Below the pieces are notes generated by a model. The model saw only the letters and a program-made list of their open reading frames with translations, was not told the origin of the DNA and ran no database searches. Shown here in pieces: positions 55,650 through 59,865 of a DNA stretch of 59,865 nucleotides. Each line of letters begins with the position of its first letter. The stretch's first letter is position 1. A program made the position numbers and the translations under genes. Origin of the DNA: Caulochytrium protostelioides (taxonomy: Eukaryota > Chytridiomycota > Caulochytriomycetes > Caulochytriales > Caulochytriaceae); the NCBI GenBank assembly GCA_003615045.1, contig ML014228.1, positions 1 through 59,865 on the forward strand, written 5' to 3'.

Positions 55650-56933
55650 TTAGACTTTGCGCTTGTAGATGCGGTGCGTGAATTCGATAAAGATGTCCGG
55701 CGGCAGCTGCGGATCCTTGAACTCATCGATGAGCGCCAGGATCCGGCGGTACGACGCTTCCTCGTAATCGCGGAAGCACTGCTCGATGTCGAGCTCGCGG
55801 TAGACCTGCTTGACGGCGGCGATGTCCTGCTCGGTCTTGCGGCCGTAGTGGGCGTCGAGACGGGCGCGCTGCTCGGGGCTGGCACGTTGCAAGGCCTGGA
55901 CGACGAGCCACGAGCACTTGTTGTCCTGGATATCGGTGCCGACCTTGCCCATCACGGCGGGGTCACCGTAGCAGTCGAGGAAGTCGTCCTGGACCTGGAA
56001 GTACTCGCCGAGCGGGAGGAGCACACCGCGTGCCTTCGCGAACAGCGCCTCGTCCGTGATGTCTGCGAGCAGCATCGCCGCGGCCACAGGCAAGTAGAAC
56101 GAGTAGTAGGCCGTCTTGTACTCGACGATGTATGCGTGCTTCTCGGCGGAGAACCGCGCGAGGTCCACGTGGTCCTCAGGCGCCGTCAGCAGGTCCATCA
56201 GCTGGCCCAGCTCGGTTTGCATGATCGTCGTCTGGAACAAGTCGACAAAATCCGAGTACCGCGCGTGGCGGCGGAAGTACTTGCGCAGCAGCGCAAACAT
56301 GGCGGCCTCGACGAGGAACGCATCGTTAATCGCGGCAGCGCCGACGCCGGGCAGCTTGTACCAGCACGGCTGGCCGCGGCGGGTGATCGACTGGTCCATG
56401 ATGTCGTCGGCGATCAAGAAGCACGACTGCAGCCACTCAATGGCCCAGCCGAGCACGGCGCAGTGCAGCGCCGCATCGCCCTGCAGCTGCTTCTGGTGGG
56501 TCAGCTGTGCATACGCCGACGCGACCGTGAGGCCGCGGTTGAGCTTGCCGCCGTGCAGCGTGTAGTCGAACATCTAGCGATCGCGTTCATCATTGCCATC
56601 GGTATGGGGTGAGTTGAGCCGTTTATCAGGATTCCGCGTTTCAAGCGCCTGTTTCTCATAGTGACTGGCCATCACATCACATTGCGACGCTTGAGCGATG
56701 CATGGATCCGATCGCCGCTATTCACTTACGCGCTTCACATGGGCCATGCCCTCGGCGGGCAGACGGTAGGAACGGAAGAGATCCAGTATGTCGTCGCGGA
56801 AGACATCGAAGGCCTGTAGGAAGTCGTCGCGCTCGTTCTTGCGCGGCGTCGGAAACGGGTTCGGTGCCGTCGCGGCCTCCAGTGGCCCGGCGGGCGGGGC
56901 GTGCGGCGCCATGGCGGGCTCGGGCGACAGCAT
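55650..56933 (-). CDS. ERG20: Farnesyl pyrophosphate synthase, two exons
   Basis: Exons 56933-56730 and 56573-55650 give 375 residues (yeast Erg20: 352). Exon 1 supplies the N-terminal helices (DDFLQAFDVFRDDILDLFRS, YRLPAEGMAHVKR), exon 2 the rest from MFDYTLHGGKLNRGL. The enzyme condenses dimethylallyl- and isopentenyl-PP to geranyl- and farnesyl-PP for sterols, dolichol, ubiquinone and prenylation. Both Asp-rich motifs are present: FLIADDIMDQSITRRGQPCW and EYFQVQDDFLDCYGD, plus FQTTIMQTELGQLMDL and KTAYYSFYLPVA. The bulky residues four and five before the first DDxxD (Cys, Phe around QSCFLIADD) fit a farnesyl-length product. C-terminus YKRKV is typical. The frame is open upstream with ATGs at 56912 (possible shorter form) and at 57170, which would add a mitochondrial-type leader (RAVHTSSTTRTTRTT). 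Confidence 0.92.
56574..56729 (-). other. Spliceosomal intron in the FPP synthase gene
   Basis: 156 bases, phase 0. The 5' site reads AAGCGC|GTAAGT at 56729 and the 3' site ATCGCTAG|ATG at 56574. Without splicing, exon 1 hits a stop four codons on; with splicing, the protein matches FPP synthases across the join (HVKR + MFDYTLHGGKLNRG). A GGCTCAACTCAC stretch before the 3' end could hold the branch site. It is the only intron I can place in the window. Confidence 0.85.
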
Positions 56934-57262: not shown

Positions 57263-57377
57263 CCTCCGACTGCGAAGGCTCCGTCGGGCGCTCGGTTGCT
57301 CCGCGGCAGCCGTTTTGCGGTGGCGACAGCGGGTGCTGTGCATCAATGTGTGGGCGTGCCACGCGACCTGAGCGGAA

Positions 57378-57407
57378 GCGATGCGATGCGATGCGATGCG
57401 ATGCGAT
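57378..57407 (+). repeat. GCGAT pentamer tandem repeat, 6 copies
   Basis: Six perfect copies about 115 bases upstream of the FPP synthase TATA element; same pentamer as the arrays at 5631, 17111 and 34724. Confidence 0.9.
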
Positions 57408-57639
57408 CCGCTTCGCCACATCATCGAGCAACAAGCAAACCACAAAAATGAATAACAAGAGTGAGAAGGCGCGACGCCGAGCATGGGAAGGACGCTCCAG
57501 CGAGCGCCGACGTGCTTCTTTGTTGGGGGCGTCCCATTGTTGTGCGATTTTGTGATTTCCCAAGACCTGGTGGAGGTCGTTGGACCCCGCGGGGGGATCG
57601 TCAGGTCAGGCTTCAAATAAATATAAAAGACCGATCAAC

Positions 57640-59280
57640 GCAATCGCCATGCCCTCCTCGGTGTACCCAAGGGGGCCCCTAAGGAGGCAGTCCGCATTCG
57701 ATTTATCGAGCTTCCTGATATTGAGCCGCAGCGGGTCTTGTCCGGGAAACATGGCACAGCACAGTAGGCCTGACGAGCAAGGCCAGGCAGCGTCGGAGGT
57801 TAAAGTCGGCATTGAGACCGAAGTTCACAAACTTGCCGTCGGTGGCTTCCTACCAAAGCAAACTACGGACCAGGATCCCCCGGCGCCAGCATTTCCCGGG
57901 TTCAGGGCCATATATATCTAGGCATACACCCGAGTCCCATGGATCGGATTGACTGTCGTCGGCACGGTGGAGTGGGGTGCCCGCCCGGGACGCGTGAGAG
58001 ATCGGCACGGCCGTCGAGTCCCGGGTATTCGCCTTGGCCAGGATCTCATCCGTCTCGGCATGCACCTGGGTCGTCCGGAGCTCGTCGGCCATGACCACTG
58101 GGCGCACGCCTTGTACGCGCGAGCGGTTGGAACCGAGATCTCGCTCTTGCCTCCGGGGGCAACCTCGGAGGAGCCATAGGCAACCACCACTCCAGCGACC
58201 ATGGGCTCCATCGCCGCAGCTGCCCCGTTGGCGACGCGGTTCATGAACTTGACAAACACGCGCTGCTTGCCGCTATACAAACGCATTCGCTGGCGCGCCC
58301 AGCGCGGCTTCAGGAACTCGGCCCACAGCGGCTCGTACGTGGCGAGCCACATCTCCAGGTGGTGCGCGTCGAGCGCTGTGCCCTTGGAGCTCCCCTCGGA
58401 CAGCCGCTCCAGCAGCTCTTTCAAATGGCACTGCCACGTCTCTGACTACTTTTGGGCGGCCCTCATGCTGGCTTCCACATAGTATTGCTTTCGACTTAAC
58501 TTCCAGCTAACGACCTGGCCTTTGGGCCCCACCATGGCCATAGAGAAGATGTTGGTGCAGCCCGGGTCGTTCTCGATGATGCAATACTGATCCAGGCGCT
58601 TTGCCAAGGGGTTCTCGGTCTGATCGGCGCTGCCTGCCGCGAGGCGGGGGCGGGGGTGCTTGGTCTGAAGGGGGTCGTCTTCCGGAGGCTGTCCGGCCTG
58701 ATCGGGGCTGGCGAGCAAGAGGTTCGTGGCCCAAGGGGTCGCCCTGACAATCGACGTCAGATACCTTCTTCTTTTGCTCGAAGTGGACGCACACACTGGT
58801 CCCATCGCTGTCGATGTCGCCGGTGAACTTGTGGGCTTTGCTTTCCAGTTTGCGGAACGCCAGGGTGGCCGCCCCCTGCTCTGCGATCATGGCCATGAAG
58901 GCCGCTCAGTCGCAACCATCAATGTGAGGTCCTCCAGCAGGCCTTACTGCTCGGAGGTGTCGATGGTCATGAAGTAGGCGCACCTCGGCACCACCGACAC
59001 CACGTAGATTGCCGACAGCTTAACTACCGCCAGACGATAAAGCGTGGCGCACGAGGGAGCGCAAGGTGACCTTGCTGTTCAGCTAGTCAGGCAGCGCGTT
59101 TTGGTCTTCCTTGAGGCCCAGCATGCGGCGGTGCGCAGCTACCATCAGCTCCAGGGCAGGCGACCGCTCCCCGGCTTCCGAATCCCGACGCAGCGGAGTA
59201 TGATACACGGAGGCGTGGGTTCCCAACGGGAGGATGCAAAGCACGCCAAGGCTGGCGTGCACACGCCACGCCTGGGTTTT
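57640..59280 (-). pseudogene. Fanzor (TnpB-like RNA-guided nuclease) gene, nearly full length, broken
   Basis: Minus-strand reading gives, in order: LELMVAAHRRMLGLKEDQNA, a VVPRCAYFMTIDTSEQ block (about 58995-58945), LAFRKLESKAHKFTG and DSDGTSVCVHFEQKKK, then a long frame (58805-57918, one TAG at 58446-58448) with RuvC-I CIIENDPGCTNIFSMAMVGP (Asp codon 58566-58568), RQRMRLYSGKQRVFVKFMNR and VVVAYGSSEVAPGGKSEISV then PTARAYKACAQ. After a frameshift comes RuvC-II VVMADELRTTQVHAETDEIL (Glu codon 58081-58083); in another frame ILVRSLLW-stop-EATDGKF; and RuvC-III VNFGLNADFNLRRCLA (57834-57784). RuvC-III reads NFGLN where the family has NRDLN, so the third catalytic Asp is lost. At least three stops and several frameshifts make it a pseudogene. 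Fanzors are eukaryotic TnpB relatives spread by mobile elements; no intact transposase is seen beside it. Confidence 0.78.
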
Positions 59281-59688: not shown

Positions 59689-59865
59689 ATGCAGCTGATC
59701 ATATGGGGCAGCGATAGGCTGCTGCCCTTCTTGCTGCTGTCCATTCTCATGTGCCTGGGCATCACAGCCGCAAATCCTATGGATGACAACGGAAAGCCTA
59801 TGGATGACGCAACATTTCTTGCGACATATTTCGACTATAATCCCGATGAACCTCCTTTCGACCCC
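59689..59865 (+). CDS. Secreted protein, start with signal peptide (3'-partial; continues at base 1 if the ends join)
   Basis: ATG 59689 in a good context (CCGCCGCCATG). The first 27 residues are a textbook signal peptide: a short N-region (MQLIIWGSDR), a hydrophobic core (LLPFLLLSILMCLGI) and a small-residue cleavage site (TAA before NPMDD). From 59771 the sequence equals bases 1-95 of the window, in the same frame, so the rest of the gene is almost certainly the frame at 1-1766, or a close relative of it. It is divergent from the broken Fanzor gene, whose 5' end is about 400 bases away. Confidence 0.75.
   Translation, partial: MQLIIWGSDRLLPFLLLSILMCLGITAANPMDDNGKPMDDATFLATYFDYNPDEPPFDP
59771..59865 (+). 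repeat. 95-bp terminal direct repeat, right copy
   Basis: Identical to bases 1-95 (see left copy). Confidence 0.95.

Follow-up and report, generated by a model that had tools for sequence, protein, structure and literature searches.

What kind of gene is the broken Fanzor nuclease frame near the end of contig C118 of Caulochytrium protostelioides, and how did it arise there? The window analyzed was the whole contig (ML014228.1, 59,865 nucleotides), one of 337 in an assembly of 20.9 Mb; passages of PMC6784888 place the organism among mycoparasitic fungi. The locus, at 57640-59195 on the minus strand, is probably one dead copy, truncated at its 5' side, of a Fanzor1 family that reached high numbers by copying anchored at the 3' end. 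This judgment covers the identity and the copying, not the route. From one pseudogene the analysis led to a family of 432 detected RuvC-III sites in a 21-Mb assembly, which is large enough to ask how transposase-free Fanzor genes are copied. No publication on Fanzor in Caulochytrium was found in the literature searched.

Extent and damage of the window copy

P0002, an intact relative of 629 amino acids, served as the reference for frameshift-aware alignments. Positions 59160-57748 of the minus strand aligned to its residues 208-613 with 185 of 385 aligned residues identical, and DNA homology to sister copies began near 59195. Because residues 1-207 were missing, the gene is not near full-length, as had been claimed from the letters alone; its N-terminal third is absent. 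In the retained part, four frameshifts and five in-frame stops were counted relative to P0002.

The three RuvC blocks were recovered on the minus strand in the correct order. RuvC-I (NDPGCTNIF, 58571-58545) and RuvC-II (MADELRTT, 58092-58069), placed by alignment to P0002 and by motif position, retained the catalytic D and E, respectively. In RuvC-III (NFGLNADFN, 57825-57799), the catalytic D was changed to G. Sister copies read VDEFRTT at the position of MADELRTT and NRDLNAALN or VNRDLNAALNIRR at that of NFGLNADFN. Because the sister copies keep the aspartate, its loss is a lesion of the window copy itself. On these points the sequence-only reading, which had described the blocks, the retained acidic residues and a dead active site, was borne out. 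The evidence supports the view that the window copy, with its reading frame broken and its active site lost, is dead, and most likely it does nothing by itself.

The same reading had described a frame open over about 890 bases with a single TAG and had taken the decay to be recent. Such a frame is real (969 bp, 57918-58886), but only 552 bp of it (58652-58101) aligned to P0002 in that frame. When 500 first-order Markov sequences were simulated, 5 of them contained an equal or longer frame; the length is unusual and bears little on age. L026, the nearest of 25 other copies compared, differed at 19.6% of aligned codon bases over 204 codons. A DNA search of the genome with the window copy gave 555 first-look candidates, and among the 40 that were scored the 39 best places other than the copy itself had 72-84% identity, with 84% reached at two places (661 and 578 query bases) and 77% at the best-scoring one. 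As the sister copies compared are so diverged from the window copy, recent decay was left unsupported.

Assignment to Fanzor1 and loss of the zinc ribbon

Motif, profile and fold all supported membership in the Fanzor family, with homology far beyond chance, and the earlier assignment could be narrowed to Fanzor1: profile and fold similarity pointed to the solved Fanzor1 proteins rather than to Fanzor2 or TnpB. At the family level, the D of RuvC-I (in DPG), the E of RuvC-II and the RD of RuvC-III were found in order, the window copy lacking the last D. Among 49 relatives, D586 was invariant and D378 and E542 were conserved in at least 90%. SpuFz1, PpFz1, and GtFz1, the solved Fanzor1 structures, show the same D-E-D order, the DPG motif, and the same fold over about 490-540 aligned residues. 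In contrast to these proteins, the relatives analyzed here are poor in zinc ligands, and in the Caulochytrium copies RuvC-II is separated from RuvC-III by a long insertion rich in Pro and Ala.

The zinc positions could be assessed by pattern in 82 of 120 listed relatives. None had all four cysteines, and 78 had at most one. In the second cysteine pair, 47 of these proteins still had C at the first position and another 25 had Y, and the second position held T in 68. Under a stricter pattern (68 relatives), the first pair usually had H or Y at its first position (25 and 22) and D or T at its second (49 and 11), and 66 of these relatives lacked a CxxC in the segments checked. Twenty-six copies read through in the genome had mostly H, T, Y, and then T or A at the zinc positions; in the window copy, HAET follows RuvC-II at the place of the first cysteine pair of canonical Fanzor and TnpB proteins. 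Because the loss is common to intact relatives, it does not reflect decay of the window copy. Thus, most zinc-ribbon cysteines have been lost across the lineage, and the RuvC triad and the Fanzor1 fold have been kept.

The 2013 motif definition of Fanzor, as given in passages of PMC3627910, places between RuvC-II and RuvC-III a C4 zinc finger, which this family does not have, and SpuFz1 carries a CCCC finger according to a figure legend of PMC10432273. A later paper, in an excerpt of PMC10711439, attributes the finger to many TnpBs and Fanzors. Since the C4 finger is lacking here, yet only "many" members are said to carry it, the family was classed within the Fanzor1 clade as a zinc-poor variant and not as a canonical member. 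The portions of the Fanzor literature searched hold no description of a zinc-less Fanzor1 clade, although one may still exist. Intact relatives that combine the RuvC triad and the Fanzor1 fold with replacement of most zinc-ribbon ligands are directly testable for RNA-guided cleavage.

Standard models were mostly silent on the family. No Pfam model scored above its cut-off on six pieces of the window copy or on L029, L011, L033, P0001, P0004, P0010, P0020, or P0079, and the PF07282 profile found no match in the genome. The distant relative P0117 barely passed PF07282 (26.6; cut-off 26.3), and a precomputed PF26935 annotation is present on some relatives. PADLOC returned nothing for P0001, P0002, and L029, nor did NCBIfam for these three and P0117. 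Single-sequence PDB searches with two window pieces gave no match; a match of L029 to profilin in such a search was judged to be due to chance. Pattern matches on viral contigs (9 and 600) were rejected, none of them being a relative.

Number and state of the copies in the genome

Copies were counted across the whole genome with 21-base words, picked from the copies in hand, at up to 3 mismatches and with reversed patterns as control. The words at residues 588, 458, 311, and 17 gave 432, 148, 91, and 20 sites, and the controls gave 0, 3, 1, and 2, respectively. The shares of copies in hand lying within 3 mismatches were 0.87 of 23, 1.0 of 26, 0.84 of 19, and 1.0 of 5 in the same order. The figure of 432 refers to sites of one RuvC-III motif, of which a few may be non-Fanzor and by which diverged copies are missed. 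Protein queries covered the two ends of the gene. All 94 first-look candidates of a 195-residue N-terminal query were scored and yielded 81 matches at 60 loci, and a 187-residue C-terminal query gave 1012 first-look candidates, 150 of which were scored. A residue-311 site lay at most 1.6 kb downstream of 26 of the 60 N-terminal loci; conversely, 26 of the 91 residue-311 sites had an N-terminal match upstream. The remaining 34 N-terminal loci may be interrupted, diverged, situated at contig ends, or truncated at the 3' side.

The 26 copies that were read through had been chosen by their match to the window or to the C-terminal query, a choice that favors the C terminus and of which the word counts are free. 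Their frames were taken from the alignment to P0002, which replaced frame voting among copies because voting mixed frames. Frameshift-aware alignment confirmed the Fanzor homology, and the relatives expected elsewhere in the genome proved far more numerous than the sequence-only reading implied. Its suggestion that some are active gained no support from these copies, none of which (0 of 26) was both full-length and free of lesions. L029 and L030 had no lesions in the retained part and were both 5'-truncated, and L063 consisted of an open N-terminal part only. The catalytic D, E, and D were present in 23, 21, and 19 of the 26 copies, with the others changed or unaligned, and the whole triad in 12. 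Differences among copies at the three codon positions (0.249, 0.223, and 0.290) showed only a mild bias.

L009 and L016 share an upstream segment of about 340 bases (87% identity) that occupies the position of part of the N-terminal region of L017. In L037 (C144:46500-48116), Fanzor pieces flank an apparent retroelement fragment with a reverse transcriptase. The deposited 554-residue gene model P0010 (CXG81DRAFT_23488) has a Fanzor fragment at its start and other sequence after it.

Shared 3' ends and graded 5' truncation

The copies of the family share their 3' ends and are truncated to graded extents at the 5' side. Twenty-one of the 26 copies reached residues 626-629, the exceptions being L021, which meets a contig end, L023, L026, L027, and the window copy; the 5' starts were scattered from residue 2 to residue 452. 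Sixteen copies were retrieved through their 3' end; in 13 of them, at least six sisters agreed on the 5' junction, and the junctions lay mostly at different places; among the 16, the junction of L039 is the edge of an internal deletion, and L053 begins at the edge of its stretch. When a 151-base 3' end was used as query, all 39 of the 40 best matches other than the query itself ended at query bases 140-148. This 3'-end subfamily had 64 sites in the genome (control, 0). The window copy keeps a remnant of the conserved 3' untranslated end at 57630-57705 (minus strand). Such 3'-anchored 5' truncation is characteristic of elements mobilized by long interspersed nuclear elements (LINEs) through target-primed reverse transcription (TPRT), and it is also a feature of the CRe Helitron2 elements.

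CMe-1A of Cyanidioschyzon merolae resembles the family in being an old Fanzor1 element of high copy number (about 150 copies, about 80% identical to the consensus) that has no terminal inverted repeats (TIRs) and is of unknown element class. The Caulochytrium family has more copies, and the 3' bias seen here is not described in the available passages on CMe-1A. The Caulochytrium family combines a zinc-poor lineage, a chytrid host, and 3'-anchored spread.

Route of copying

The source gene would have been full-length, about 2.7 kb, with a TATA-like box, an apparently intronless coding sequence, and a structured 3' end, and its product was presumably an RNA-guided nuclease. Copying would have begun at the 3' end of this gene and would frequently have ended before completion, so that most of the resulting insertions were inert. 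A resident LINE may have copied the Fanzor RNA in trans by TPRT. We give this route about an even chance and prefer it to rolling-circle copying, with other routes taking up what remains. More tentatively, we suggest that a zinc-poor Fanzor1 lineage spread via RNA, with a resident LINE reverse-transcribing the Fanzor transcript into T-rich sites by the hundreds, each time from the structured 3' end that is also the putative omega-RNA end. If so, the one-ended pattern known from Chlamydomonas could have the same cause, and some Fanzors would be retro-mobile. The portions of the Fanzor literature searched contain no description of RNA-mediated spread, and the Fanzor passages of PMC6338049 speak of DNA transposons.

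The 25 nt next to the 5' junction contained TTTT in 6 of 30 copies, compared with 3.7% of the background, and contained a T-rich tetramer in 12 of 30 copies, compared with 18% of the background. Matches resembling target-site duplications (TSDs) abutted both ends of L048, L019, and L040. The genome contained 19 RVT_1 matches, and 7 of these loci were read. Two, typed by eye, were LINE-like with long reverse-transcriptase frames: L055 (C234:2000-8000) and L036 (C311:2500-7500). A further locus, L056 (C19:149000-154500), had a telomerase-like reverse transcriptase, also as typed by eye.

Several results weigh against LINE-mediated, 3'-anchored copying. TSD scores of at least 8 were reached by 3 of 23 copies and by 1.2% of 506 mismatched pairs, and the permutation p value of the mean score was 0.12, in a test in which L052 had no usable flank and a few 3' ends (L027, L028) were uncertain. 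A preceding test, with 12 copies, yielded 5.0 versus 4.57, and no TSD was seen by eye in the four further copies, of six fetched, in which both ends were readable. The Fanzor 3' tail was not found in L036 or L055, the LINE ends not being fixed and the reading covering 7 of the 19 RVT_1 loci. On the 5' side, the longest copies reach beyond the TATA-like box, which a simple mRNA copy would not do. L010 and L015, 89% identical over 1660 aligned bases, have the same element start and unrelated flanks; thus, not all 5' ends are random, and the two are perhaps members of a truncated subfamily. From a single exponential through three of the counts, about 54 sites were expected at residue 311, or about 45 when detection is considered, and 91 were found, so that one drop-off rate fits poorly. 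Finally, L039, L020, and L014 have internal deletions that keep the 5' part, and L063 retains nothing but the N-terminal part.

The strongest alternative, possible though less probable than transcript copying by a LINE, is that the family is a non-autonomous element moved by one-ended, Helitron2-like rolling-circle replication, which would start at the fixed 3' end and stop early, as proposed for CRe-1/2/3 of Chlamydomonas reinhardtii. According to the passages of PMC3627910 on these elements, they combine frequent 5' truncation, internal deletions and near-universal intact 3' ends, and their TSDs of about 7-19 bp lie behind T-rich tetranucleotides, from which one-ended rolling circle was inferred. 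The Caulochytrium copies share the 5'-truncated, 3'-overabundant pattern, the T-rich 5' flanks, and some internal deletions. They differ in that no Helitron2 ends were identified, TSDs are weakly seen, and the gene is apparently intronless, whereas the CRe genes have 5 or 10 exons. Moreover, no match exceeded 10 nt when one 5' end was compared with one reverse-complemented 3' end, no clear terminal hairpin was seen at ends whose 5' terminus is known only approximately, and the number of 3' tail units varies.

A cut-and-paste DNA transposon whose copies were truncated by later random deletion is improbable. A precedent is SPu-1, the element of SpuFz1 in Spizellomyces punctatus. According to passages of PMC3627910 and PMC10432273, it is another chytrid Fanzor1 with many defective copies and ghost loci, and it is bounded by TIRs of 33 bp and by putative TA duplications. 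Internal deletions such as that of L039 would fit this origin. In the Caulochytrium family, no TIR was found in the single pair of ends compared, and the strong 3' bias and sharp 5' junctions also speak against this origin. Recent decay of a single, nearly complete gene is very improbable, since the long single-TAG frame, which exceeds those of 495 of the 500 simulations, is outweighed by the missing N-terminal part, the four frameshifts and five stops, the distance to the nearest compared copy, and the hundreds of sister sites.

The 3' end as a candidate omega RNA

The 3' end of the sister copies was predicted to fold into a stem-loop, with z-scores of -1.9, -1.5, and -2.7. Alignment A2 was too uniform for covariation analysis, as 0 of 23 pairs were changed on both sides. 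In alignment A3, one pair occurred as UA in 18, CG in 8, and UG in 3 sequences, with both sides changed in 8. The fraction of paired cells in A3 (88.3%) was higher than in any of the six slid versions, and only 13 of 500 shuffles matched or surpassed it; the covariation score did not stand above the shuffles (219 of 500). Because the score does not beat the shuffles, the stem-loop can only be guessed to be a candidate omega-RNA scaffold. Some copies carry two units of the 3' tail, CTCAATATA, in place of one.

Other features of the window

A second, shorter Fanzor1 copy, also 5'-truncated, lies at 2181-2667 on the plus strand. It covers residues 453-628 with two frameshifts and three stops, 86 of 161 residues are identical to P0002, and NRDLN is retained. 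The contig begins and ends with the same 95 bases (1-95 and 59771-59865), and one reading frame exits both ends; this may reflect an overlap in the assembly graph, a gene that is repeated, or a molecule that is circular. An open frame of 307 amino acids at 55650-56573 (minus strand) resembles, we assume, farnesyl diphosphate synthase. Downstream of the main Fanzor copy, a short tandem run of GCATC occupies about 57376-57410.
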